Assembly: GCA_027493955.1 (NCBI GenBank)
Contig: JAOSJT010000001.1
Coordinates: 2,405,131-2,469,130, forward strand
DNA from: Bacteroidia bacterium
GTDB lineage: Bacteria; Bacteroidota; Ignavibacteria; SZUA-365
Direction: 5' to 3'
Length of the DNA stretch: 64,000 nucleotides
Shown here piece by piece: positions 15,333-35,000 of the stretch (position 1 is its first letter; every line of letters begins with the position of its first letter). Below the pieces are notes generated by a model. It worked only from the letters and a program-made list of their open reading frames with translations, was not told the origin of the DNA and ran no database searches. The position numbers and the translations under genes are program-made.

Positions 15333-15696
15333 CACGAACCCCGAAATAAATGAAAGAAAACCATCAATCAATGCATCGTGTGCCGGAATAATCATGCCCG
15401 GCAGGTTCCTGAAACATACAGTATTGCCTCACCGCTGTCAAGCCGTTTTGCGGTGGACTGTTTTTGCCCGAGCATACGGCGGTTCGTCGTAACCGGCGTG
15501 CCGATATTCCGGTGCACGCCGCTCCCCTTCCCCGCGGCGGTACGCTCTCGCTCCGGGGCCAACGCGCTTCCGGAAGGAGTCACAACGCGCGGGAGGTCCC
15601 GTAAACACAGACGACACGGGGAAGGACCTCCATGCTTCCGCATCGTCGCTCATGCCGCGTTCGGCGCCGGGGCTTCGGGGAGCCTGTGACGCGATT
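15333..15696. other. Intergenic region before the five-paralog cluster
   Basis: Divergent spacer of about 360 bp between the NYN gene and the first promoter box of the T9SS paralog cluster. No gene is seen. Overlapping open frames (for example on the minus strand across 15580-16173) run into the start of the next gene and have no domain signal. Confidence 0.45.
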
Positions 15697-15748
15697 CGGA
15701 TATTTTTTATCAACATACTTGACTTTTACTTTTTCTGTCCGTATGTTG
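15697..15748 (+). promoter_or_regulatory. Candidate promoter of the first T9SS paralog
   Basis: A CGGATATTTTTTATC block is followed by CATACTTGAC (TTGAC at 15719-15723), 18 nt, and TATGTTG (15742-15748). The same arrangement, including the CGGATATTtyTTATC block, occurs 20514-20567 before the third paralog. The -7 box is a partial match to the Bacteroidota TAnnTTTG form. It lies about 295 nt upstream of the ATG at 16043. Confidence 0.5.
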
Positions 15749-16042: not shown

Positions 16043-17713
16043 ATGAAACGTTTTCTTTCTTCGATACAGCTGTTCGCTGTTTGTGCTCTGCTCGGTAGTG
16101 CCACTACGGTACTCGCGCAGAATGGCGGTACGAGTGCCAACGGTCCGTCCACGAACGCGTTGCTCCCTCCCACGACCGCCTTCTCTACCTTTGTCGGACC
16201 GGCGGAGATCCGGGGGGACTATGTGGCCGGCGGCGTCGGCATGCGCAACGTCGGTTCCGGAACAATCAACCTCTCCATCCCCGCAGGCGCCACGTTACGT
16301 AAGGCGTACTTATTCTGGGCTGTTATCTGGCAAGGGACCCCTCCCTCCGCAAACGGTGATCTGAACAGCACCACGGTCACCGGCGCTCTGCTCGGTTCGA
16401 GCGGTTCCCCCTGTTGGGGCGGTGATGCAATCAACTTCTATGGCGCCGACGTCACGGGTGTTGCCGTGAGCGGTATGAACAGTCTCAGCAATTTCCCCAG
16501 CGGATTAACCAATAATGCTCCCCCACAGGGGAATGTCGTGTATCCGCTCATGGAAGGCGCGACGCTGGTGCTCGTGTTCAACCACCCGATGTGGGACTAC
16601 AATACCATTTCCATTCATACCGGCTCGGTCACCTTCGCCCTTCAGAGCTATGGCCTTTTCGCGGGTGCGTTCACGGGCTGGACTGCGGGTAATCCCGCCG
16701 ATCAGCTCGCACAGAACACCTTCGTTGTCGCTGACGGACAGGCAATATTCGCGGGTGACGGTACGGGCTTCAACGCGACGGCCACAAGCGGACCGACCAC
16801 GGGCATCAAGACCGCGGACGCATTCGACGGCGCTGACGGTATTGTACCGGTATCCGCATCCGACGGATTGTGGGACACGCACACGCTGGACGTCAGTTCC
16901 TTCTTCCCGAATGGCGTCGCGACCAATGCGAATCCGGAAGTTCTCGCCGGGAGCGGTGCCGACTGCCTCACCTGGGGTGTGCACATCATTTCCGTCAAGA
17001 CGCGTGTCAACGCCCATGTGGACGTCAAACCCGGTTCCTGCCCGAATTCGTTCAATCCTGGAAACAAGGGTAATCTTCCGGTCGCGATCCTCGGCTCCGC
17101 GGGTTTTGACGTCACAAACATTGATCCGGCAACTGTGAAATTGAACGGCGTCTCCCGCACCGGTGGCACGAGCGTCTCGGATGTGTCCATGCCCTACGGT
17201 ATGTTCCAAATGGGATGCATGGATTGCAACTACGGTGGCCCGGATCTCATGAACGACCTCGTCGTGCATTTCAAATCGCAGGATGTAGCCGCAACATTGG
17301 GTCAGGTCGCGTTCAATGACTGCGTCCCTGTCGAGATTACCGGTAACTTCTACGACGGCACGCCGTTCGTGGGTTACGATATTCTCCGCATCGTCGGTGG
17401 TTCGCCGAAGGATGCGCCCGAAGCCATTGCGGGCTTCGCGCTGCAGCTCGACCAGAACTCCCCGAATCCCATTGTCGAAGCCACAAGCTTCAGCTATACG
17501 CTTCCCGCCGAGGGATTCATGCAGCTGGCCGTGTACAACGCGCTCGGACAGAAGATCGCCACCGTTGCACAGGGTGTGCAGCCCGCCGGTTCACATATGG
17601 TGAGCTGGAATGGTTTGAGCGACAACGGCGCCCGCGTCGCACCCGGGGTATACCTCTATCGCCTCGAGACCGGCAGCCAGAGCATTTCGAAGAAGCTGCT
17701 CATTTCGAAATAA
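16043..17713 (+). CDS. T9SS-secreted paralog A (556 aa)
   Basis: First of five tandem paralogs. The ATG follows TGAGGAGTTCTC. A signal peptide (MKRFLSSIQLFAVCALLG...LAQ, about 26 residues) is followed by a domain of about 290 residues whose hallmark is GDYVAGGVGMRNVGSG, then KAYLFWAVIW and SSGSPCWGGDAINFY. A second module at about 325-450 starts HVDVKPGSCPNSFN and continues LPVAILGSAGFDV. This module recurs in many secreted bacterial proteins. The last ~90 residues are a T9SS type-A sorting domain (LDQNSPNPIVEATSFSY, GVYLYRLETGSQSISKK). It is an exported, probably surface-attached protein with no catalytic motif recognised. The final ~330 nt, including the 3' hairpin, differ from paralog B at only about three positions, although the bodies diverge much more, which points to gene conversion. 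Cysteine pairs (CWGG, MGCMDCN) are conserved across the family. Confidence 0.87.
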   Translation: MKRFLSSIQLFAVCALLGSATTVLAQNGGTSANGPSTNALLPPTTAFSTFVGPAEIRGDYVAGGVGMRNVGSGTINLSIPAGATLRKAYLFWAVIWQGTPPSANGDLNSTTVTGALLGSSGSPCWGGDAINFYGADVTGVAVSGMNSLSNFPSGLTNNAPPQGNVVYPLMEGATLVLVFNHPMWDYNTISIHTGSVTFALQSYGLFAGAFTGWTAGNPADQLAQNTFVVADGQAIFAGDGTGFNATATSGPTTGIKTADAFDGADGIVPVSASDGLWDTHTLDVSSFFPNGVATNANPEVLAGSGADCLTWGVHIISVKTRVNAHVDVKPGSCPNSFNPGNKGNLPVAILGSAGFDVTNIDPATVKLNGVSRTGGTSVSDVSMPYGMFQMGCMDCNYGGPDLMNDLVVHFKSQDVAATLGQVAFNDCVPVEITGNFYDGTPFVGYDILRIVGGSPKDAPEAIAGFALQLDQNSPNPIVEATSFSYTLPAEGFMQLAVYNALGQKIATVAQGVQPAGSHMVSWNGLSDNGARVAPGVYLYRLETGSQSISKKLLISK

Positions 17714-17735
17714 TCTGTGATTTCCTTTTTCCACG

Positions 17736-17767
17736 ACGGCGGCCTCGTTTGGGGCCGCCGTTTTTTT
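17736..17767 (+). terminator. Intrinsic terminator after paralog A
   Basis: A 9-bp stem ACGGCGGCC / GGCCGCCGT (17736-17744 and 17753-17761) with an 8-nt loop, running straight into seven T residues. The same hairpin is repeated after paralogs B, C and D. Confidence 0.88.
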
Positions 17768-20308: not shown

Positions 20309-20513
20309 TGTCATTTGTGGGCCTCGAATCCGGATTGCAACTTCGGCAGGTCCAGCTCAACAGTTTTCCGACGCAGATTCTCCGACTTCATGCGGCCAAC
20401 AGGAAGCTCTCCACGCACCGTTATGCACGTTCTCGCCTTTCCGCCTGTATCGCTTCTCCGATCCCACCAGGCTGGATATTCTCTCTCACGGAGGAGATGC
20501 TGGCCAGTGATTC

Positions 20514-20567
20514 CGGATATTTCTTATCTCCATACTTGACATCGGGTATTTGTGTAGAGTATATTTG
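20514..20567 (+). promoter_or_regulatory. Candidate promoter of paralog C
   Basis: CGGATATTTCTTATC, then CATACTTGAC (TTGAC 20536-20540), 19 nt, and TATATTTG (20560-20567), an exact match to the Bacteroidota -7 consensus TAnnTTTG. It resembles the box before paralog A. It lies about 340 nt upstream of the ATG at 20906, which implies a long leader. The leader (20568-20905) has no recognised gene. Confidence 0.65.
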
Positions 20568-20905: not shown

Positions 20906-22531
20906 ATGAAACATCTCCTTTCTTCTATACAGATTCTCGTTGTGGCGGGACTTGTCGCAGCAGCCGTACCGATACAGGCTCAAGACGGCACGGCCGCAAG
21001 CAGCAACGGACCAACCGCAAATACATTTTACGGGACGCAACATCCGTTCGTCCAGCTCTACTCAGAGGAGATCCAGGGCGATTATGTCGCCGCGGGAACC
21101 GGAATGTGGACAAGCAGCACCGGAAACATCAATCTCACGATCCCGCCTGGTGCTTCGATCGAGAAAGCCTTTCTTTTTTGGGGTGTGCTCTGGTCCGGAA
21201 CGATCCCATCGAGCAGTTGCACCTTCAACAACACGAATATCAGCGGCGTTTCGCTGGGGTCGAGCGGTTCTCCATGCCGTGGCGGAAGCGGGTTGATCTT
21301 CTTCTACGCTGATGTTACAAGTGTGGCCGTCAGTGGCAACAACACGATTGACAATGTACCGAACGGAGTGACGACATATCCTTTAACCGAGGGTGCAACT
21401 CTCGTTCTCGTATACAAGCATCCGGCATGGGATTACAACACGGTGACAGTGGTTGGCGGACCGTCAACATTTGTATTCGAGGTTGTAACCAGAGGGCTGG
21501 GTACGTATACCGCATACTCTGCTGGCAATCCCGGAGACCAGGTTGTACAGCATACTTATATCGTCGCTGACGGACAGAACGCGGGCGCGGATGGAACAGC
21601 CTTCAACAGCACGGCAACGAGCGGACCGGGTACCGGCATTCTTGACCCGGATACCTTTACCGCATCCGACGGTCCTATCTGGGATACACGCACATTTGAT
21701 GTAAGTTCGATTTTCTCTGTTGGGACACCGACCTCGGCAAACGCAACGATCTCAAGCGCCGCGTTGGCAGGCTTCGGCGATTGTCTCACCTGGGGTGCGC
21801 ATGTCATCTCCGTGAAAACCGCACTCAACGCGTTTGTTGACGTGAAGCCCGGCACCTGTCCGAATCCGTTCAACGTGAGCAGCAAGGGTGTTCTCCCTGT
21901 AGCCATTCTCGGTTCCGCCGGCTTCGACGTTGCCAATATCGATCCGTCTACGGTCACACTCAATGGTGTACCCCGCACTGCCGGCATGGGAATCTCCGAT
22001 GTCGGAACACCGTATGGCAGTTTCGCTTCGGGCTGCAATGACTGCTCTGCCGCCGGACCCGATATGACGAACGATCTCACACTCCACTTCAGTTCGGCAG
22101 CCCTCGCCGCCACGCTCGGAAGCGTCGCGACCAACGACTGCGTTCCTGTTGTCATCGCCGGTCAGTTCTATGACGGCACTCCGTTCAGCGGAACCGACAT
22201 CCTTCGTATCATCAACAACGCACCGAAAGATTCTCCGAACGGCGTCGCGGGCTTCGAGCTGCAGCTCGACCAGAATTCCCCGAATCCCGTCGTGGGCGGC
22301 ACCAGCTTCAGCTACACGCTTCCCGCCGAGGGATTCATGCAGCTTGCGGTGTACAACGCGCTCGGACAGAAAATCGCCACCGTTGCGCAGGGTGTGCAGC
22401 CCGGAGGTTCACATATGGTGAGCTGGAACGGTTTGAGCGATAACGGCGCCCGTGTCGCACCCGGGGTATACCTCTATCGCCTCGAGACAGGCAGCCAGAG
22501 CATTTCGAAGAAGCTGTTGATTTCGAAATAA
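20906..22531 (+). CDS. T9SS-secreted paralog C (541 aa)
   Basis: Third and most divergent in its N-terminal domain. The ATG follows ACAGGAACCTCATAT. The signal peptide is MKHLLSSIQILVVAGLVAAAVPIQAQ. The GDYVAAGTGMWTSSTGNINL segment replaces the GVGMRNVGSG of the others, and SSGSPCRGGSGLIFFY replaces CWGG...INFY, so the domain is kept with altered loops. The VDVKPGTCPNPFN / LPVAILGSAGFDV module and the T9SS sorting domain (LDQNSPNPVVGGTSFSY ... SISKKLLISK) follow. The sorting domain is again nearly identical to A and B at the nucleotide level, while the N-terminal half is the most changed, a contrast expected if the tails are kept alike by recombination. An exported surface protein; function unknown. 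Confidence 0.86.
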   Translation: MKHLLSSIQILVVAGLVAAAVPIQAQDGTAASSNGPTANTFYGTQHPFVQLYSEEIQGDYVAAGTGMWTSSTGNINLTIPPGASIEKAFLFWGVLWSGTIPSSSCTFNNTNISGVSLGSSGSPCRGGSGLIFFYADVTSVAVSGNNTIDNVPNGVTTYPLTEGATLVLVYKHPAWDYNTVTVVGGPSTFVFEVVTRGLGTYTAYSAGNPGDQVVQHTYIVADGQNAGADGTAFNSTATSGPGTGILDPDTFTASDGPIWDTRTFDVSSIFSVGTPTSANATISSAALAGFGDCLTWGAHVISVKTALNAFVDVKPGTCPNPFNVSSKGVLPVAILGSAGFDVANIDPSTVTLNGVPRTAGMGISDVGTPYGSFASGCNDCSAAGPDMTNDLTLHFSSAALAATLGSVATNDCVPVVIAGQFYDGTPFSGTDILRIINNAPKDSPNGVAGFELQLDQNSPNPVVGGTSFSYTLPAEGFMQLAVYNALGQKIATVAQGVQPGGSHMVSWNGLSDNGARVAPGVYLYRLETGSQSISKKLLISK

Positions 22532-22554
22532 TCTGCGATGTCTTTTTTCCACAT

Positions 22555-22588
22555 CGGCGGCCTCGTTTCGGGGCCGCCGTTTTTTTTT
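22555..22588 (+). terminator. Intrinsic terminator after paralog C
   Basis: An 8-bp stem CGGCGGCC / GGCCGCCG (22555-22562, 22572-22579) followed by nine T residues. Confidence 0.88.
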
Positions 22589-22802
22589 CGCTGCGGGAGA
22601 CGCAAACATAGCAGTGTCCCGCGATCGTATGGCAGGGTGATGCACGGCGAGCAAGCCGGAGCACCTTGCGTGGAGAAGACGCTCGAAGGAGGAGCAGCCG
22701 AAGCGACCATGCCTCCGGCGGGACATCTACATATCATTCGCTGAGGGCGAATCTGTATATATTTCCGACATAAAATTATTTTTTCCCAATCCCTGACAAC
22801 TC

Positions 22803-22833
22803 TTGACTTTCCCTTTGCGCTTTTCAATATTTG
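22803..22833 (+). promoter_or_regulatory. Candidate promoter of paralog D
   Basis: TTGAC (22803-22807), 18 nt, AATATTTG (22826-22833). Just upstream, from about 22745, is an AT-rich block (GGCGAATCTGTAT...CCGACATAAAA...TTTTTTCCC) that is conserved before paralog E and could act as an UP-like element. Confidence 0.62.
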
Positions 22834-22839
22834 CACTGT

Positions 22840-23209
22840 CATGTTTTCACTGCGCGTCATCGTAACGGCAACTGCCACAGGCGGAGATCTGTCATAGGGA
22901 GTCTCGTTCCTGTCGCCGCCGGTCATCGTTCACATTCTCCGGCGGCAGCGTGCGGAATGTCGGCTTTACACTCGCCGTTACCGATGCAACCTGAGACGCA
23001 CTACGCCTTCTTTCCCCGTCTCCTCACGGGGTGACGCAATGACGCTTCGATTGCAGCGTGGACGAGCGCACAGCAATGTGGCGTGGAGTACGCATCAATC
23101 CGCCGATCAGCGGTATCGGGGGGACAACACCGTCCATCGTCTGATCTGCAGAAGGTCAACCCGTACCGGTTCATCTTCCCATAGATCTACTAATCTGAGG
23201 AGTTCTCCC
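22840..23209 (+). promoter_or_regulatory. Long structured 5' leader of paralog D
   Basis: About 370 nt between the promoter box and the ATG, closely matching the leader of paralog E along its whole length. Visible stems: ACAGG/CCTGT (22877-22881 with 22909-22913), GCCGCCGG/CCGGCGGC (22915-22922 with 22939-22946), CCCCGT/ACGGGG (23014-23019 with 23026-23031). The second stem has a compensatory change relative to E. About 75 nt from 23039 are nearly invariant. It matches no riboswitch class I recognise. Confidence 0.5.
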
Positions 23210-24874
23210 ATGAAACGTTTCATCACGACGATGATGATGCTCATCGCAGGCGTCCTGCTACTCGCAGGACAGACGCTGTCACAAACCGGAGGAATCGCAT
23301 CCACGAACGGTCCCTCCACCAACATGCTTTACCTTCCAACCACCGATCTCACGTTCTACAGGGGGTGGGTAACTCAAGGCGATTATATCGCTGGTGGCGT
23401 TGGTATGCGCAATATCGGTTCCGGGACTATCAATCTTTCCGTTCCAACCGGCGGGATCCTGCACAAGGCCTATCTCTTTTGGGCGATAATCTACGATGGC
23501 ACTCCGCCGCCGCTTACCGGCACACTGAACGGTACTCCGATCACGGGTACGCTCCAAGGGACCAGTGGCTCTCCCTGCTGGGGCGGGGACGGCATTAATT
23601 TCTACAGCGCCGATGTGACCGGGATTGCTGTTGACGGTCTCAACTACCTGACCGGATTTCCCAGTGGTCTGACCAATAATGCTCCGCCGCAAGGGAATAT
23701 CGTATTCCCTCTTCTTGAAGGAGCGACCCTCGTCTTCGTGTTCAGACACCCGCAATGGGATTACAACATCGTCGCTTTGTACACCGGCGCGAACACCTTT
23801 GCGAATCTTGCACAAAGCTACAACGTCGGAACGTATACCGGCCGCGCTGCCGGATATCCCGGCGATCAGGTAGCACAGCATACCTACATCATGGCTGATG
23901 GACAAGCCCGATTTGTGGGTGGCGGCACAGCATTCAACGGCAATCCGACTAGCGGTCCCGGCACGGGCATCAAGCCGACCGACGCGTTCGACGGAGCCGA
24001 TGGCATCATACCCGTCTTCGCGCTGGATGGTCTGTGGGATACCCATACTCTCGATATAAGCACCTATTTCCCACATGGCATATACACGACGGCCATAGCG
24101 GAAGCCAGCGCCGTGACGGATTGCATCACCTGGGGTGCGCATGTCATTTCCGTCAAGACCAGGCTGCACTCGTTTGTGGATATCAAACCCGGCTCTTGCC
24201 CGAATTCCTTCAATGTCAACAGTAAGGGGAACCTTCCCGTCGCCATACTCGGGTCGCCCGGTTTTGATGTCGCGAATATCGACCCCGCCACAGTCACACT
24301 GAACGGCGTACCGGCGACAGGCGGGATGTCCCTGTCCGACGTTTCCACCCCGTACATCGGATACAAAACCGACTGCATGGATTGCAATACGATCGGTCCT
24401 GACGGTACGATGGACCGTGTGTTTCATTTCAACAGTCAGGCCGTCGCGGCAACGCTCGGACCCGTTTCGAACAACGACTGCAAGCTCCTGGTAATCGCAG
24501 GGGAATTCATGGACGGAACGCCGTTCTCAGGCCGGGACATCATCCGTGTTATCGGCAACATCGCCCCGAAGGAGGCCCCGACAACGGCATCCGGTTACGA
24601 TTTGCAGCTCGATCAGAATTCTCCGAATCCCGTGACTGACGGCAGCACGTTCAGCTTTACACTTCCCGCGGAGAACCATGTACTTCTCGCGGTGTACAAT
24701 CTGCTCGGACAGAGAGTAGCGACCATCGTCGACGGTAGCCGTGCGGCAGGTCCGCACAGCGTTGGCTGGAACGGGGTGAGCGATTCGGGCATACGTCTCG
24801 CTCCCGGAGTCTACATGTACCGCCTCGAGACCGGCAGCCAGATCATTTCGAAGAAGCTGCTGATTTCGAAATAA
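23210..24874 (+). CDS. T9SS-secreted paralog D (554 aa)
   Basis: The start at 23210 is preceded by TGAGGAGTTCTCCC and begins a signal peptide (MKRFITTMMMLIAGVLLLAGQTLSQ). The frame is open for 57 codons further, but that stretch is the conserved leader; in paralog E the equivalent frame ends in a stop before the gene. Domains: GDYIAGGVGMRNIGSG ... KAYLFWAIIY ... SSGSPCWGG-type N-terminal region, VDIKPGSCPNSFN / LPVAILGSPGFDV module, and T9SS sorting domain (LDQNSPNPVTDGSTFSF). It pairs with E: protein and leader are strongly alike. However, the last ~10 residues (IISKKLLISK) and the hairpin that follows match A-C rather than E, so D is a mosaic. An exported surface protein with no enzymatic motif seen. 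Confidence 0.87.
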   Translation: MKRFITTMMMLIAGVLLLAGQTLSQTGGIASTNGPSTNMLYLPTTDLTFYRGWVTQGDYIAGGVGMRNIGSGTINLSVPTGGILHKAYLFWAIIYDGTPPPLTGTLNGTPITGTLQGTSGSPCWGGDGINFYSADVTGIAVDGLNYLTGFPSGLTNNAPPQGNIVFPLLEGATLVFVFRHPQWDYNIVALYTGANTFANLAQSYNVGTYTGRAAGYPGDQVAQHTYIMADGQARFVGGGTAFNGNPTSGPGTGIKPTDAFDGADGIIPVFALDGLWDTHTLDISTYFPHGIYTTAIAEASAVTDCITWGAHVISVKTRLHSFVDIKPGSCPNSFNVNSKGNLPVAILGSPGFDVANIDPATVTLNGVPATGGMSLSDVSTPYIGYKTDCMDCNTIGPDGTMDRVFHFNSQAVAATLGPVSNNDCKLLVIAGEFMDGTPFSGRDIIRVIGNIAPKEAPTTASGYDLQLDQNSPNPVTDGSTFSFTLPAENHVLLAVYNLLGQRVATIVDGSRAAGPHSVGWNGVSDSGIRLAPGVYMYRLETGSQIISKKLLISK

Positions 24875-24897
24875 TCTGCGATTTCCTTTTTTCACAA

Positions 24898-24930
24898 CGG
24901 CGGCCTCGCTTCGGGGCCGCCGATTTTCTT
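24898..24930 (+). terminator. Terminator after paralog D
   Basis: CGGCGGCC / GGCCGCCG stem (24898-24905, 24915-24922) followed by ATTTTCTT. Same family hairpin as after A-C. Confidence 0.75.
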
Positions 24931-25283
24931 CCACACATTCTCCCACACGCATGCGGTGACAGACTACTGCGGAACGAAGCTCCATGCTGTTCGGCCTTTA
25001 TCTGCACCGCGTGATGCATGCGAAAAGTCCTGAGGCGCAGACTCTGCGGTACGCCTCGTGCGGAGCGTCCTACGGGAGAGGCAAGCGCAGCGGTCGTCCG
25101 CGATCGTCCGGCAGGACGACGCACAACGAACGCGCAGGAGCCCCGTACAACGGGGAAGTCGCTCGTAGGAGAATCGGTCGAAGCGACCAGGCACCCAAAA
25201 GGATATCTCACTATCGTTTGGGGAGGGCGAATCTGTATTCATTTCCGACATAAAAATATTTTTTTCCCGAACCCCGATACCAC
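24931..25283. other. Spacer between paralogs D and E
   Basis: About 350 bp with no recognised gene. The last ~60 bp (from about 25224) repeat the AT-rich block found just upstream of the paralog D promoter, marking the left edge of the D/E duplication. Short overlapping frames on both strands show no family signal. Confidence 0.45.
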
Positions 25284-25314
25284 TTGATTTTCCTGATGCG
25301 CTTGGTAATATTTG
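25284..25314 (+). promoter_or_regulatory. Candidate promoter of paralog E
   Basis: TTGAT (25284-25288), 18 nt, AATATTTG (25307-25314), identical in layout to the paralog D promoter and about 376 nt upstream of the ATG. Confidence 0.6.
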
Positions 25315-25320
25315 CAGTGT

Positions 25321-25689
25321 CAAGTTTATACTGCGCGTCATCGTAACGGCTACTGCCACAGGCGGAGCTTTGCTCCGGGGTGTCTTGTTCCTGTCGCGGT
25401 CGGTCATCGTTCATTTTCTCCGGCCGCGTGTGCAGCATGTCGGCTCTACACTCGCCGTTACCGATGCAACCTGAGACGCACTACGCCGTTTTTCCCCGTC
25501 TCCTCACGGGGTGACGCAATGACGCTTCGATTGCAGCGTGGACGAGCGCACAGCAATGTGGCGTGGAGTACGCATCAATCCGCCGATCAGCGGTTCCGGG
25601 GGGCACTACCGTCCGCCGCACGGTCTGCGGGAAGTCAACCTTTAACGGTTCATCTTCCTAATTGATCTACTAATCTGAGGAGTTTTCCC
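25321..25689 (+). promoter_or_regulatory. Long structured 5' leader of paralog E
   Basis: Counterpart of the D leader. Stems: ACAGG/CCTGT (25358-25362 with 25390-25394) enclosing a small GGAGC/GCTCC hairpin, CGCGGTCGG/CCGGCCGCG (25395-25403 with 25420-25428), CCCCGT/ACGGGG (25494-25499 with 25506-25511). The frame equivalent to the D extension starts with the ATG at 25519 and stops at 25668, so the conservation is better explained by RNA than by protein. Confidence 0.5.
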
Positions 25690-27354
25690 ATGAAACGTTT
25701 TACCACAGCGATGATGACGCTCATCGCAGGATTGCTGTTGATCTCCGGACAGTCTCTGTCTCAAACCGGCGGAGTCGCACCCACGAACGGTCCTTCCACC
25801 AACGGGCTCATTACCCTAACCACCAATCTGGCTCCTCTAATCTCGACAACTCTCCAAGGTGACTATGTCGCCGCCGGTGTCGGCATGCGCAATATCGGGT
25901 CCGGAACCATCAACCTGTCCATTCCCACCGGCGGGGTCCTGCACAAGGCCTATCTTTTCTGGGCAATCATTTACGACGACACTCAGCCACCGAACACAGG
26001 GACACTGAACGGCAACCCGATATCGGGCATACTCAAAGGGACGAGCGGTTCTCCCTGCTGGGGAGGAGAGGGCATCAATTTCTACCTCGCCGATGTGACC
26101 GGGATTGCCGTGAACGGGCTCAACACTCTGACGGGTTTCCCGAGTGGTCTGACCAATGGCGCGCCGCCGCAAGGGAATATCGTATTCCCGCTTCTTGAAG
26201 GAGCGACCCTCGTCTTCGTGTTCAGACACCCGCAATGGGATAGAAATACCGTCATGATTCACACCGGTGCGAACACCTTCACACAGACTGCGGTGAGCTT
26301 CTGGTGTGGAACATTTATCGGGCGCCCTTTCGGAAATCCCGCCGATCAACTGGCACAGCAAACCTACATCATGGCCGACGGACAAGCCAGAGCCCCGGGC
26401 GGCGCAACGAAGCTCAATGGCATTCCCACAAGTGGTCCCGGAACAGCCATCAAGACGAACGACGCGTTTGACGGCGCCGATGGCATCATACCCGTCTTCG
26501 CGCTGGATGGTCTGTGGGATACACATACATTCGATGTGAGCACGCTCTTCCAACCGAACATCAGTACGCCGGTCACAACGGAAGCCAGCGCCATGTCGGA
26601 TTGCATCACCTGGGGCGCGCATATCATTTCCGTCAAAAACAGGTTGCATTCCTTCGTTGATATCAAGCCCGGCTCCTGCCCGAATCCCTTCAATGTCAAC
26701 AGCAAGGGGAATCTGCCCGTCGCCATACTCGGTTCGCCCGGATTTGACGTCAGTGCGATCAATCCCGCAACCGTCACATTGAACGATGTACCCGCGACAG
26801 GCGGCGTATCCCTGTCCGATGTTTCCACACCGTACATCGGATTTAAAGCTGACTGCATGGATTGTAATGTGCTCGGGCCGGACGGTACAATGGACCGAGT
26901 GTTTCATTTCAACAGTCAGGCCGTCGCGGCGACGCTCGGACCCGTTTCGAACAACGACTGCGTCTTCCTGTCAATCGAAGGAGAGTTCATGGACGGAACG
27001 GAGTTCAGCGGCCTGGATATCATCCGCGTTATCGGCAACATCGCCCCGAAAGAGGCTCCGACAACGATATCCGGTTACGATTTGCAACTCGATCAGAATT
27101 CTCCTAATCCCGTGACTGACGGCAGCACGTTCAGCTTTACACTTCCCGCGGAGAACCAGGTACTTCTCGCGGTGTACAATCTGCTCGGACAGAGAGTAGC
27201 GACCATCGTCGACGGTACACGGGCGGCAGGTCCGCACAGCGTTGGTTGGAACGGGGTGAGCGATTCGGGTATACGTCTCGCTCCCGGCGTCTACATGTAT
27301 CGCCTCGAGACCGGTAGCGGAAGCATCACGAAGAAACTGTTGCTTTCGAAGTAG
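25690..27354 (+). CDS. T9SS-secreted paralog E (554 aa)
   Basis: The ATG follows TGAGGAGTTTTCCC. The signal peptide is MKRFTTAMMTLIAGLLLISGQSLSQ. It has the same three-part layout as D: N-terminal domain (GDYVAAGVGMRNIGSG, KAYLFWAIIYDD, SSGSPCWGGEGINFY), VDIKPGSCPNPFN / LPVAILGSPGFDV module, T9SS type-A sorting domain (LDQNSPNPVTDGSTFSF, GVYMYRLETGSGSITKK). It is nearly identical to D in the leader and most of the sorting domain but has its own last 15 residues (GSITKKLLLSK) and a different terminator, which places the recombination edge close to the stop codon. It is the last member of the cluster and is followed by an unrelated operon. Exported surface protein, ligand unknown. Confidence 0.87.
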   Translation: MKRFTTAMMTLIAGLLLISGQSLSQTGGVAPTNGPSTNGLITLTTNLAPLISTTLQGDYVAAGVGMRNIGSGTINLSIPTGGVLHKAYLFWAIIYDDTQPPNTGTLNGNPISGILKGTSGSPCWGGEGINFYLADVTGIAVNGLNTLTGFPSGLTNGAPPQGNIVFPLLEGATLVFVFRHPQWDRNTVMIHTGANTFTQTAVSFWCGTFIGRPFGNPADQLAQQTYIMADGQARAPGGATKLNGIPTSGPGTAIKTNDAFDGADGIIPVFALDGLWDTHTFDVSTLFQPNISTPVTTEASAMSDCITWGAHIISVKNRLHSFVDIKPGSCPNPFNVNSKGNLPVAILGSPGFDVSAINPATVTLNDVPATGGVSLSDVSTPYIGFKADCMDCNVLGPDGTMDRVFHFNSQAVAATLGPVSNNDCVFLSIEGEFMDGTEFSGLDIIRVIGNIAPKEAPTTISGYDLQLDQNSPNPVTDGSTFSFTLPAENQVLLAVYNLLGQRVATIVDGTRAAGPHSVGWNGVSDSGIRLAPGVYMYRLETGSGSITKKLLLSK

Positions 27355-28950: not shown

Positions 28951-29655
28951 ATGCAGACGGATTACACAGCGGGACGCGACGCGTTTTTGAATCTCACAGA
29001 CTACACGGGCGTGGAGATGTTCCTCTTCGCAGGGGGCTGTATTCTCTGGGTGGTCGCGTACGGTATTCTGATACGCAATGGTCTGCGATTCAAAATCATC
29101 GAGATGCCTCCGATCGCGGCCGCATCGAATTTCGCGTGGGAGGCGCTCTGGTCCACCGCATTTGAAACCGACATGGGGCACTTGCTTATCTGGACATACC
29201 GCGCGTGGATCATCTTCGATCTGGCGATTTTTTCGATGGTCATATTGTACGGAGCGAAGTTGGTGACGACGCCAACGCTCCGGCGACATTTCGCGCCGGC
29301 TATCATCGGCGCTATGCTGTGCTTCGGGGTGTTGTATTACTTTTTCACCGCACAGGGACATGACACACCGATCGGTGCGAACTCCGCATACATCGCGCAG
29401 CTTTTCATCTCCGTGTATTATGTTCTGCTCGTCCTGCAGCGGGAGGACTTCACCGGTTTTTCTCTGACGTTCGCCTATTTGCGCACCGTCGGCACAGGCA
29501 TGAATACCGTGTTCATGCTCGTACATTATCCCTCCAACCATTTTCTTCACGCGATGGGCATCATCGCGCTGCTGTTTGATATTTTCTATATCGCGACCTT
29601 CACACGAAAACGCAGGTTACAGAGTCCCTCCGTTGTGTCTCCACGAGGAAGCTGA
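28951..29655 (+). CDS. Seven-helix membrane protein resembling Pyr4-type terpene cyclases
   Basis: A 234-residue integral membrane protein with about seven hydrophobic segments. The ATG at 28951 is preferred over the frame's first start at 28840, which lies inside the preceding gene and adds a charged, proline-rich N-terminus. Features recalling the Pyr4/PaxB transmembrane terpene cyclases are the length, helix count, an ASNFAWEALWS motif in the second helix with Glu64, and Asp210 in the last helix (LLFDIFYI). In Pyr4 the important acids are Glu63 and Asp218. Those fungal enzymes protonate and cyclise prenyl epoxides in meroterpenoid pathways. The similarity is recognised by eye only, so a different small membrane family is possible. 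Its stop codon overlaps the start of the sensor kinase (TGATG), implying translational coupling. It lies directly after a DUF2236 oxygenase, another family used on prenyl chains. Confidence 0.62.
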   Translation: MQTDYTAGRDAFLNLTDYTGVEMFLFAGGCILWVVAYGILIRNGLRFKIIEMPPIAAASNFAWEALWSTAFETDMGHLLIWTYRAWIIFDLAIFSMVILYGAKLVTTPTLRRHFAPAIIGAMLCFGVLYYFFTAQGHDTPIGANSAYIAQLFISVYYVLLVLQREDFTGFSLTFAYLRTVGTGMNTVFMLVHYPSNHFLHAMGIIALLFDIFYIATFTRKRRLQSPSVVSPRGS

Positions 29656-32600
29656 TGCAAGTCCCCGGATACTCGCTGAAGGAAGAGTATTCCGCCGGCC
29701 CCGGCTGGCGGATGTTTCGCGGTATTCGCGTCACGGACAACGCTGCTGTCCTCGTCAAGATCGCTTCGGATGACACTGACGATCAGGGGGCATCTCCGCT
29801 GTTGCTTGGGGAACATGCCGTACTTTCGCAGAGCCACAGCGCGGCATTCCTTTCAATACAGGAAATCATTCACCTGAATGATTTCGTGGCGCTTGTTCAT
29901 GAGGATTTTCGCGGATCGCCTCTTTCCCTGACCCTTGATGGCGGACCTCTCCCTGTCGAGGAAGTGATAGAACTGGGAATCGCTTTGGCGCAGGCGGCGA
30001 TGGATCTCCATTCGTTGGGACTTCTTCATGGTTTGCTCCAACCGTCCGGCATTCTCATCGAACGACGGCCGATGCGGATCAAAGTCACGAACTTGTTTCT
30101 CTCACAACCGCACGGCCTTCCCACCGTCCTGCCTCCGCGCTTTCGATCGAGTACCGCCATTGTCCCGTACATTTCCCCGGAGCAGACAGGCCGTATCGAA
30201 CGCGTGGTGGATGGGAGGAGTGATCTCTACAGCATAGGTGTCATCCTCTATCAATCGTTGACCGGATGGACTCCATTCCGAAGCAACGATCCCATGGAGG
30301 TGATCTATGCGCACCTGGCAAAAAATGCGGTCCCTCCACACGAGGTCGATTCTTCCATTCCGGAGGCCCTTTCACGAATCATCATGGCGCTGCTCATGAA
30401 AGATCCCATGGATCGGTATCAGAGTGCCATGATTCTGCAAGATGATTTGCTGCGCTGGCGGACCGTTCATTCGGATACACAGCGTTCCCATTCCTTTGAA
30501 CCAAGAACAGGCGTAACCTCCGGATACTTCGAACTCCCGCAACGGTTGGTAGGCCGGGATACCGAGCTTGCACAGCTGACGGATGCATGGGAGAGATGTA
30601 CACGCGGCATTCGTACGTCCCTGATTCTCGACGGATACGCCGGAGTCGGGAAATCGGCGCTTGTTCAAGGGATTCTGCCGTTGATTGTGCGCCACAACGC
30701 TTCGTTCCTTCGCGGTAAAGCCGATCAGCTGCAACGGGATACACCCTACGCGGCTCTCTCCAATGCGATACGCGATTTCATTACGCAGTTGCTGATGGAG
30801 AACCGCGAGCAGCTCGACTATTGGCAGCAGCGTTTCAGGCAGTATCTGGATTCCGTTGCCGCCGTGATTGCGCGTTTCATTCCTGAAATGGAATTTTTCC
30901 TGGGTTCGCAGCTCACTCTGGAAGCCGTACCCCAGGCAGAGGCCGTGAACCGTTTTCGTGAAGGCATGGGTCGGTTTTTTGAAGCGCTGTCTTCCGAAAG
31001 CCACCCGCTCGTATTCTTTCTCGATGATCTTCAATGGGTTGATGGCGATACGCTGCAGGTGCTGCGGGCCATACTCGATGAACAGCGTGCGCGGCATGTC
31101 CTGTTCATCGGCGCCGTACGCGGGCACGAACTCACCGACGCGATGCCTGCGACGGATTTTCTGCGTACTCTCTCCGATACGGAAGGATTTGCCGGGACCA
31201 TTACGCTCGATGCGCTCAGCCTTGACCGCGTGAACGAATACGTATCAATGGCTCTCCACATCCCGCCGGCACAGTCGCTGGAGTTTTCAGAGGTCCTGTA
31301 TCTGAAGACGCGCGGGAATCCCTTTTTTCTGCGCCAGTTCCTCTCGCTGGTGCATGAGAAAGCGCTGCTTCGATTCGATGAGGCAACGGAGTCGTGGCGA
31401 TGGTCGCTCGAGGAGACGGCACAGCTGCCACACACCGAGAACGTCGTGCTGCTCCTGACACAACGGATGCAGACCTGGTCACAAGCTGCCCGGGACTCGC
31501 TCGCGATGGCATCCGTACTGGGCAGCAGTTTCGCGCTCTCCTCCGTGGCTGTCGCCAGCGGACGGGAGGTGGCGCAGCTCGAGGACGAGATCCGTCCTGC
31601 GATCGAGGCGCGGCTGCTGCTTCCGATGGAGAAGGGGCAGAAGCCCATGTTTCAATTGCCGGGAAGAAACGGTGATGATCCGAAATATCGGTTTTTACAT
31701 GACCGTGTTCAGCAAGCGGCCTTTGCTCTCATCCCGGAGGACCGCAGAGCCTCCACACAGTTGACAATCGGCAGAAGGCTGCTGGATCAATTGCCCACGG
31801 ATCGGCACGAAGAGTACGCGTTTGTTCTTGCGGATCAGTTCAATGCCGGACGCGCACTCATCGAAACGCACGCAGAACGAATAGCACTGGCACGACTGAA
31901 TATTCTCGCAGGGATAAAGGCCGGCAGTTCCGTCGCGTTCGGGTCCGCGGTAACGTATTTCCGCATCGCATTGGAATTGCTCGGGAACACGTGGGAATCG
32001 GATCGTGCGTTGCTGTGGACGGCGACGCGTGAGATTGGGAGGATGGAATACGCGCTTGGAAATCTGGATGCCGCATCCCGGTACTTTGAGACAATGAGTG
32101 CTCACGCGCGTACACCCATCGAGGAGGCCGAGGCCCTCGCCGAGCGGGTCCATTTGATGATTCACTTCGGCAAATTCCGCGAAGCTCTTGAACTCGGTCG
32201 ACGTGGATTGGTCGTTCTCGGTCACCACATCCCCGAACGCGTCACGCGACTGCATGTGCTTGCGGAGTTGATTCGGCTGCGCATCGCCACGCGCGGACGG
32301 ACGCCCGAGGACATAGCCGCGCTTCCGGAGATGACAGATGACAATGCCAAGCGCGCAACCGAGCTGATGACACGTCTTCTCACTGCGGCATATTTCGCTT
32401 CGGCCGAAACGATCGGATTTTTCAATCTGCGGATGATGCGACTTGTCGCCCGTTTCGGCACAGTGGAAAGTGCGGCGTATATTTTCTCGCAATACGGACT
32501 CGTACTTGGTGCCGGGTTGGGACGTCACAGCGAAGCGTACCACTTCGCCCACACGGGCATTCGCATGATGGAGGGCACCCCCACGTCGTACTGGAAAACC

Positions 32601-35000
32601 CGCGTCTATCTGGCCACCGCCGCCGTCGTAAACCACTGGACGCACGATGTTCGCGAAAGTATCCCGCTCCTCGATCTCGCCATGGAGGCTGCAAAGAGTT
32701 GCGGAGATACACTGTACGAGCTCTATCCGGGACAGTTCAAAGTGCATACCCTGCACTTCCTCGGTACTCCGATAGCCGAAGTTCTGAAGGTGATTGACAC
32801 CTTGTTCATCCATGCACGGAAGCATCAGCTGTCCACAATTTCGCTTGAGGTGTATCGGCAGTTCTATCGGGATCTGCAAGGGGAATCGTCTGAACCCGGA
32901 GACTGGCATGGTGCGGGTTTTGATGAAGACAAGATTCGCTCTGAGATCGAAGGGTCAGGGGACAGTGCTACCGCGGCGCATTATTACATTCTTCGGATGG
33001 AAGCGTTTCTCGCGGCTGATCGTCTGGCAGATGCCGACGCGATGCTCTGGCTCGCGAAACGCCACGTGGCAGGTACAATGGGCCAGTTGTCCCATATCGA
33101 ATACCATACCAGCCGCGCGTTGGTCGCCGCAGAAAAACTGAAAGAAGGCCTGGGTGGGCGGTCCGATATGCAGACACTGCGCCGCAGTCTTCGGGCGCTC
33201 AGCCGGTTTGAGAAACACTGTCCCGAGAATTTTGCATCGCGGCGTCTGCTCCTCGCGGCGGAACTTGCGGCGATTTCCGGGGATGCGCTGAAAGCCCTTC
33301 GACTCTACGATCAGTCACTCGAAAAAGCAAAGACGCGGAACGATTTCAGGATTGAGGCACTCACTGCGCGATCCGCAACACGAACATGTGTGAACGCGGG
33401 ATTGCACGAGGTTGGAAAGTCCTACGCGCGAACGGCGGTCGAAGCGTTCAGTGCCTGGGGCGCGTATCGATATGCCGACGCGTGCTTTCAACAATATCTC
33501 CGGACCGAACGTCGGTCGGTTCCACCCGCTTTTTCAGGCGGCATATCATCGCAGCACTCTGTTACTCCTGAAGCCGCATCCTCCTTCGATCTCGGCAGTC
33601 TCCTCAAGGCCACGTCCGTGATCACCGAAGAAATTCATCTGGCAAGGCTCGTTGAGAAATTGCTCCACATCACGGTAGAGAATGCGGGCGCGGAACGCGG
33701 AACGCTGTTGCTGGAGCAGGATGGCGATATGCGGACGCATGCCCACTGGGATGCCACATCGCAGCGCGCGATGTTACTCGAACACCTCCGGCCTGAGGAG
33801 ACCCCGGAAATCGTGTCGAGGATTGTGCGCTACGTCGAACGGACGAAGAAACAGATCCTGCTCGATACCGCGTTGACGTCCGAGCAATTCGGAGGCGACG
33901 CGGACATTCAACGCCGGGGTGTGCAATCCGTTCTCTGCATCCCCGTCCTGTACAAATCCGCTCTGATCGGAATACTGTATCTGGAGAACAACCTCAATCC
34001 GGGAGTATTCAGTCCCGCGCGTGTCGAATTTCTGCAGCTGCTGTTCTCACAAATCGCTTCCGCGCTCGAGAATGCGCGTCTCTACGCCGGTCTCGACGAG
34101 GCCCGTCGCTCGCTCGAGGAGTACAGTATCGGACTGGAAAAAATGGTCGCGGAACGCACGCAGGATCTGGAGCGGCGCAGCGAAGAATTGCAGCAGGCGC
34201 TCGATCACCTGCAGCGAACGCAGGCACAGCTGATCCAGGCGGAAAAACTTGCCTCCCTCGGCGAGCTCACTGCGGGAGTCGCGCATGAGATTCAGAATCC
34301 GCTCAACTTTATTCGCAATTTCTCGGAGCTGTGTGTCGAACTGACGACCGAAATGCGCTCCGCGGCGACAGAAGGAATCGGCACCTCGCTGTCGCTGCAG
34401 GACGATCTGGCGACACTACACGATGTTTCGAAGAAGATTCACGATCACGGGTTGCGCATCGAGCGCATCGTACGCGGTATGCTCGAACATTCACGCAGCG
34501 GGTCACTCACACGGACAACGGAGGACGTGCATACCCTGATCGGGGAGGCGCTTTCGTTGTGCTACCATGGCCTGCGTGCAAAAGACGACACATTTACCGT
34601 TGCGATCGAAACGCGCTACGATGATTCTCTTCCCGCGATGGAGGTGATTGCAGCGGATCTGTCCCGGGTATTCATCAATATCATCGATAACAGTTTTTAT
34701 TATCTGAAAGAGAAAGCACGATCCGCAGGGTCGTCGTATTTTCCTTCCCTCTCGATCAGCAGCGCCCGGACACCCCATGACGCGGAATTCCGTTTTCGCG
34801 ACAACGGACCCGGGATACCACCAGAGGCCCTCCAGAAAGTGTTCCAGCCGTTTTATACAACAAAACCGTCAGGGGTCGGGACCGGCCTCGGCCTCAGTCT
34901 CAGCTACACCAGCATTGTCGAGGGACACAGGGGTACGCTGTCCGTGAAATCAGCGTACGGAGAATGGACGGAAGTTATTGTCCGTTTGCCTCTGGCGTGA
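29655..35000 (+). CDS. Pseudokinase-ATPase-GAF-histidine kinase fusion (1781 aa)
   Basis: A large cytoplasmic signalling protein. Residues 1-270 have a Ser/Thr kinase fold: Lys35, YISPEQ, DGRSDLYSIGVILYQSLTG. The catalytic HRDLKPxN loop reads HGLLQPSG and the DFG segment reads TNL, so it is probably a pseudokinase. An AAA-type ATPase follows (Walker A GYAGVGKS near 329-336, Walker B VFFLDDLQWVD near 453-463), then a long helical, TPR-like region (about 650-1300), a GAF domain (about 1315-1475), a coiled coil, a HisKA domain with the phospho-acceptor in GVAHEIQNPLNF (near 1543), and an intact HATPase (NIIDNS, DNGPGIP, GTGLGLSL). This order is known for large sensor kinases of myxobacteria and cyanobacteria. 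No receiver domain or response regulator is adjacent, so the output partner is unknown. The ATG overlaps the stop of the membrane protein, suggesting it senses or controls the same process. Confidence 0.9.
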   Translation: MQVPGYSLKEEYSAGPGWRMFRGIRVTDNAAVLVKIASDDTDDQGASPLLLGEHAVLSQSHSAAFLSIQEIIHLNDFVALVHEDFRGSPLSLTLDGGPLPVEEVIELGIALAQAAMDLHSLGLLHGLLQPSGILIERRPMRIKVTNLFLSQPHGLPTVLPPRFRSSTAIVPYISPEQTGRIERVVDGRSDLYSIGVILYQSLTGWTPFRSNDPMEVIYAHLAKNAVPPHEVDSSIPEALSRIIMALLMKDPMDRYQSAMILQDDLLRWRTVHSDTQRSHSFEPRTGVTSGYFELPQRLVGRDTELAQLTDAWERCTRGIRTSLILDGYAGVGKSALVQGILPLIVRHNASFLRGKADQLQRDTPYAALSNAIRDFITQLLMENREQLDYWQQRFRQYLDSVAAVIARFIPEMEFFLGSQLTLEAVPQAEAVNRFREGMGRFFEALSSESHPLVFFLDDLQWVDGDTLQVLRAILDEQRARHVLFIGAVRGHELTDAMPATDFLRTLSDTEGFAGTITLDALSLDRVNEYVSMALHIPPAQSLEFSEVLYLKTRGNPFFLRQFLSLVHEKALLRFDEATESWRWSLEETAQLPHTENVVLLLTQRMQTWSQAARDSLAMASVLGSSFALSSVAVASGREVAQLEDEIRPAIEARLLLPMEKGQKPMFQLPGRNGDDPKYRFLHDRVQQAAFALIPEDRRASTQLTIGRRLLDQLPTDRHEEYAFVLADQFNAGRALIETHAERIALARLNILAGIKAGSSVAFGSAVTYFRIALELLGNTWESDRALLWTATREIGRMEYALGNLDAASRYFETMSAHARTPIEEAEALAERVHLMIHFGKFREALELGRRGLVVLGHHIPERVTRLHVLAELIRLRIATRGRTPEDIAALPEMTDDNAKRATELMTRLLTAAYFASAETIGFFNLRMMRLVARFGTVESAAYIFSQYGLVLGAGLGRHSEAYHFAHTGIRMMEGTPTSYWKTRVYLATAAVVNHWTHDVRESIPLLDLAMEAAKSCGDTLYELYPGQFKVHTLHFLGTPIAEVLKVIDTLFIHARKHQLSTISLEVYRQFYRDLQGESSEPGDWHGAGFDEDKIRSEIEGSGDSATAAHYYILRMEAFLAADRLADADAMLWLAKRHVAGTMGQLSHIEYHTSRALVAAEKLKEGLGGRSDMQTLRRSLRALSRFEKHCPENFASRRLLLAAELAAISGDALKALRLYDQSLEKAKTRNDFRIEALTARSATRTCVNAGLHEVGKSYARTAVEAFSAWGAYRYADACFQQYLRTERRSVPPAFSGGISSQHSVTPEAASSFDLGSLLKATSVITEEIHLARLVEKLLHITVENAGAERGTLLLEQDGDMRTHAHWDATSQRAMLLEHLRPEETPEIVSRIVRYVERTKKQILLDTALTSEQFGGDADIQRRGVQSVLCIPVLYKSALIGILYLENNLNPGVFSPARVEFLQLLFSQIASALENARLYAGLDEARRSLEEYSIGLEKMVAERTQDLERRSEELQQALDHLQRTQAQLIQAEKLASLGELTAGVAHEIQNPLNFIRNFSELCVELTTEMRSAATEGIGTSLSLQDDLATLHDVSKKIHDHGLRIERIVRGMLEHSRSGSLTRTTEDVHTLIGEALSLCYHGLRAKDDTFTVAIETRYDDSLPAMEVIAADLSRVFINIIDNSFYYLKEKARSAGSSYFPSLSISSARTPHDAEFRFRDNGPGIPPEALQKVFQPFYTTKPSGVGTGLGLSLSYTSIVEGHRGTLSVKSAYGEWTEVIVRLPLA

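Follow-up and report, generated by a model that had tools for sequence, protein, structure and literature searches.

Two adjacent genes for T9SS type A cargo proteins, named here D and E, carry homologous putative 5´ leaders of about 370 nt. These leaders probably represent two copies of an ordinary promoter and ~370-nt 5´ UTR produced by tandem duplication, with a patch of gene conversion added (a rough probability of 65%). At the level of sequence, the homology of the leaders, a promoter-like site, terminator-like hairpins and a patchy pattern of identity are established. The feature is a real duplicated promoter-leader, the data can be explained without a dedicated regulatory RNA, and a dedicated regulatory function of the leader is probably absent. 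An earlier note on this DNA had read the same leaders as a possible cis-regulatory RNA. Its letters and coordinates proved correct on re-checking and its long transcribed leader is plausible, but going from conservation to an RNA function lacks support, because the double change is at chance level, the invariant block lacks excess structure, conversion-like patches are present elsewhere in the array and the genomes searched gave no third homologue.

The window, meaning the whole stretch of 64,000 nt that was analysed, comes from the forward strand of Bacteroidia bacterium (Ignavibacteria; SZUA-365; assembly GCA_027493955.1, contig JAOSJT010000001.1, positions 2,405,131-2,469,130). It harbours five homologous neighbouring genes, starting at 16043 (A), 18586 (B), 20906 (C), 23210 (D) and 25690 (E), whose products of ~540-556 aa each end in a C-terminal T9SS sorting domain. 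Membership of TIGR04183 was defined by a C-terminal domain above the curated cut-off of 23 bits, which both D and E pass. They are the most alike pair within the array, with D nearest to E (whole-protein identity 81%, coding-region identity 81.6%). Relatives of the same family mostly have one full-length gene of this type or none, which suggests a lineage-specific expansion of the array. A scan of named genomes with the E protein gave no match; the same scan with an alignment of A-E and one relative recovered four distant family relatives and three close ones, the latter listed as Ignavibacteria or Bacteroidetes MAGs. The 5.24-Mb source genome holds a large cargo set, with at least 150 TIGR04183 matches listed (150 of the 347 candidates scored). 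The array is followed by a 1781-aa protein (29655-35000) whose translation reads like a kinase/AAA/GAF/histidine kinase fusion.

Table 1. Features of the D and E region (positions in the window).
Feature	Position	Strand	Basis
Promoter-like site of D, TTGACT-N17/18-AATATTTG	22803-22832	+	scan match 9/12; consensus only
Promoter-like site of E, TTGATT...TAATATTTG	25284-25313	+	aligns with D site; below scan threshold
Putative 5´ leader of D	22840-23209	+	alignment
Putative 5´ leader of E	25321-25689	+	alignment
D 5´ domain: outer helix GCGUC/GAUGC + GUAACGGC/GCCGUUAC around central hairpin	22854-22987	+	MFE = centroid; z -2.7
E 5´ domain: same outer helix + central hairpin	25335-25467	+	MFE = centroid; z -3.0
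D central hairpin, 8 bp, 16-nt loop	22915-22946	+	folding + alignment
E central hairpin, 8 bp, 16-nt loop	25396-25427	+	folding + alignment
Block identical in D and E, 104 nt	23011-23114 (E: about 25492-25595)	+	alignment
CCCCGU-CUCCUC-ACGGGG hairpin; loop + closing A complement SD UGAGGAG	23014-23031	+	folding; match chance 0.12-0.17
Terminator-like hairpin 3´ of gene C	22555-22579	+	sequence
Terminator-like hairpin 3´ of gene D	24898-24922	+	sequence
Gene D, T9SS type A cargo protein	23210-24874	+	TIGR04183 38.6 bits, above cut-off
Gene E, T9SS type A cargo protein	25690-27354	+	TIGR04183 41.8 bits, above cut-off

The two leaders are 88.3% identical across 368 columns and are the sole pair in the array alignable throughout. 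The leaders of A, B, C and the relatives showed no alignment with those of D and E beyond the promoter and the ribosome site. Outside the invariant block, identity between D and E falls to 80-82%, similar to that of the coding region, and conservation of the 5´ domain exceeds that of the upstream spacer (82.5 vs 70.8%, p=0.02). Folded as a whole, the leaders are not clearly more stable than their shuffles (z -1.2 and -0.6).

Promoter-like TTGA...TAnnT sites are located at -406 (E), -407 (D), -324 (A) and -370 (C), and a comparable site is found at -285 to -337 in three relatives (L024-L026); the chance of one such site is 0.18 per 450-nt stretch. This similar placement, together with the terminator-like hairpins, makes a long 5´ UTR likely across the gene family. 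Behind their promoter-like sites, A, C and L024-L026 have long leaders of unrelated sequence. Thus, the leader sequence appears to be kept in D and E only, although a long 5´ UTR is likely family-wide. At L023, a locus in another relative, the upstream gene lies close by, leaving no room for such a leader. Genes A (about 15693-15739) and C (20509-20556) have 47 nt in common around the promoter-like site (GGATATTT.TTATC..CATACTTGAC), possibly a shared upstream control site, and almost nothing alike downstream of it. Moreover, a GTCA-type motif, perhaps an initiation-region signal, occurs a few bases after the -10-like element in D (about 22837-22842), E (25318-25323), L024, L025 and L026.

The best-preserved part of the leaders is the invariant block, which had been put at ~75 nt and turned out to be longer, with 104 identical nucleotides. 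Its surroundings are also well conserved (146 of 148 positions identical across 22967-23114), and it ends 95 nt upstream of the D start codon. The longest identical run in 5000 permutations was 64 nt, so far below the observed length that some cause is needed. Gene conversion accounts for the block at least as well as selection on RNA would, because homogenised patches occur elsewhere in the array. Genes A and B share 220 identical nucleotides across the gene 3´ end and terminator, where pS is 0.00-0.07, compared with 0.41-0.83 (about 0.65 for most) over the remaining gene. Near-perfect identity between A (17459-17750) and the B 3´ end (to about 20310) covers the C-terminal sorting region and the terminator, and forms a clear homogenised patch. 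The B/C and A/C comparisons also lose divergence there (pS about 0.7 falling to 0.2), and between D and E pS is 0.08 at 24650-24769 vs up to 0.67 elsewhere. The abrupt local loss of neutral divergence that marks gene conversion is therefore plain by pS in the coding 3´ ends; the leader block, for which identity is the sole measure, would be one more re-homogenised patch. The block folds no better than its shuffles (z 0.16 and 0.65). Overall, these genes resemble tandem arrays of paralogous surface-protein genes that have undergone partial gene conversion: five homologous T9SS cargo genes lie side by side, and near-identity comes in abrupt patches. They differ from such arrays in that one long patch occupies the 5´ leader instead of a coding end.

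Upstream of the block, each leader has a 134-nt 5´ domain, predicted to fold with a 13-bp outer helix that closes a multibranch containing the central hairpin. The outer helix does not differ between D and E. The domain is more stable than its shuffles in both copies (z -2.7 in D and -3.0 in E), which are non-independent and were compared over a segment picked post hoc. The arms of the central stem read GCCGCCGG/CCGGCGGC in D and GCGGUCGG/CCGGCCGC in E. As the earlier note had described, D has C-G at the third pair (22917) where E has G-C (25398), with both arms changed; at the fifth pair, D again has C-G and E has U-G, so that pairing is kept. The loop, reported there as almost unchanged, indeed differs at only 2 of 16 positions, which is unremarkable because ~82% identity predicts as much.

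The significance of these changes was assessed by scattering the 19 observed substitutions at random over each 5´ domain, a null with an equal number of changes that follows the reasoning of R-scape (PMC11234323). At least one double-compensated pair arose by chance in 26% of trials starting from D and 28% starting from E. The double change, which had been taken as a sign of RNA conservation, thus stands at chance level (p 0.26-0.28), and it is the only one in a comparison of two sequences, too few for a useful covariation statistic. Under the same random substitutions, the retention of pairs gives p=0.04 for the D pairs in E and p=0.20 for the E pairs in D. For the 8-bp stem alone, which was picked post hoc, three random changes leave all pairs intact in 1.8% of cases.

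Searches for further copies returned D and E only, whether with the leader DNA in the rest of the source genome and 60 relatives (the source genome being the sole member of its genus among them), with the block DNA in 395 genomes of the phylum, or, among 197 genomes of the class that include 11 family members, with a covariance model built on the 5´ domain. The last of these, a covariance-model search as proposed in the earlier note, yielded no third homologue. Other DNA matches to the leader or block were short (16-46 nt) and due to chance. The best extra match of an unfiltered covariance model run on the relatives' loci (20.9 bits) fell within a coding region at L023, a locus whose gene lacks a long leader, and was rejected. 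No match to Rfam was obtained at the gathering threshold over the whole window; permissive matches were all sub-threshold, mostly on terminator hairpins, and not credible. The homologues at other genes or genomes expected of a conserved cis-regulatory RNA are accordingly missing from these searches, and D and E stand alone. The D and E proteins do not differ from other T9SS type A sorting-domain cargo proteins (TIGR04183), whereas their leader is not common to that family: among the at least 150 matches listed in the genome it is found at these two genes only, so the proposal of a cis-regulatory RNA of secreted-protein genes in general does not hold.

A narrower version, a lineage-specific cis-regulatory RNA, is the strongest competitor, although an improbable one. 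Here the 134-nt 5´ domain would sense a ligand, a protein or temperature and switch translation, with the downstream CCCCGU-CUCCUC-ACGGGG hairpin exposing an anti-Shine-Dalgarno loop able to pair with the UGAGGAG before the start codon. The stability of the domain in both copies, the unaltered outer helix and the survival of the central stem through three changes are consistent with such a switch, as is the 7-nt complement between loop and SD in D and E (duplex -11.2 kcal/mol). However, an equally long match occurs in 12-17% of randomised leaders, and the match seen here is conserved as part of the identical block, so that the loop-SD pairing is a possible idea rather than evidence. The leader also leaves the computed accessibility of the ribosome-binding site about the same (0.45 with it vs 0.38 without, and 0.43 vs 0.41, by pseudoknot-free nested folding). 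The chance-level double change, the absence from the other genes and relatives searched and the lack of an Rfam match argue against this reading as well. The leaders do resemble riboswitches, ribosomal protein leaders and RNA thermometers in having a long 5´ UTR, a closed 5´ domain and a loop complementary to the SD, but unlike these they fall below every Rfam gathering score and, with two copies only, offer no phylogenetic covariation. The more specific proposal of a genus-specific RNA in the duplicated T9SS cargo leaders, whose closed 5´ domain would control the hairpin while the CUCCUC loop masks the Shine-Dalgarno, is more doubtful still.

Coding explanations have even less in their favour. 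That the block encodes a conserved leader peptide, or extends D at its N-terminus, from an ATG at 23039 (D) or 25520 (E) (MTLRLQRGRAHSNVAWSTHQSADQR) is very unlikely. The frame is open for 25 codons in both genes, and an upstream GGGGTGA could act as a ribosome site, but the frames then part: as the earlier note had observed, the E frame ends (a 1-nt deletion shifts it relative to D, and it stops at 25665), while the D frame continues through the signal peptide. There is no coding signature, since synonymous changes are absent, and the strong SD and signal peptide are located at 23210 and 25690. Contrary to what had been argued, the broken frame does not imply RNA function either, because conversion preserves whatever sequence is present. 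Finally, two reverse-strand ORFs (22474-22926 and 24964-25407) with a common MTxxDRNxTP...PPVAVAVTMTRS are both open across the leader; the changes per codon position are 13, 9 and 7, so that third positions have the fewest, and reverse-strand coding, scarcely credible on that count, was rejected.

Tandem duplication of an ordinary leader would proceed as follows. A T9SS cargo gene would have been duplicated in tandem, its promoter and ~370-nt leader being copied along, and transcription would start directly after 22832 in D and 25313 in E. Through ordinary structure, the leader would serve mainly the stability of the mRNA and the translation of a surface protein. The copies would then have diverged about as far as the genes, except for patches re-homogenised by recombination between repeats, the 104-nt block presumably being one of these and the 5´ domain remaining moderately stable. 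The points that weigh against this ordinary leader are the z-scores of the 5´ domain, its conservation relative to the spacer, the retention of the central stem at a chance of 1.8% and the p=0.04 for the D pairs.

The case indicates that one double change in a pair of paralogs, together with a possibly homogenised block, can mimic RNA conservation. If the leaders did form a true switch, they would be an uncommon instance of type IX secretion cargo under RNA control in the Ignavibacteria lineage.
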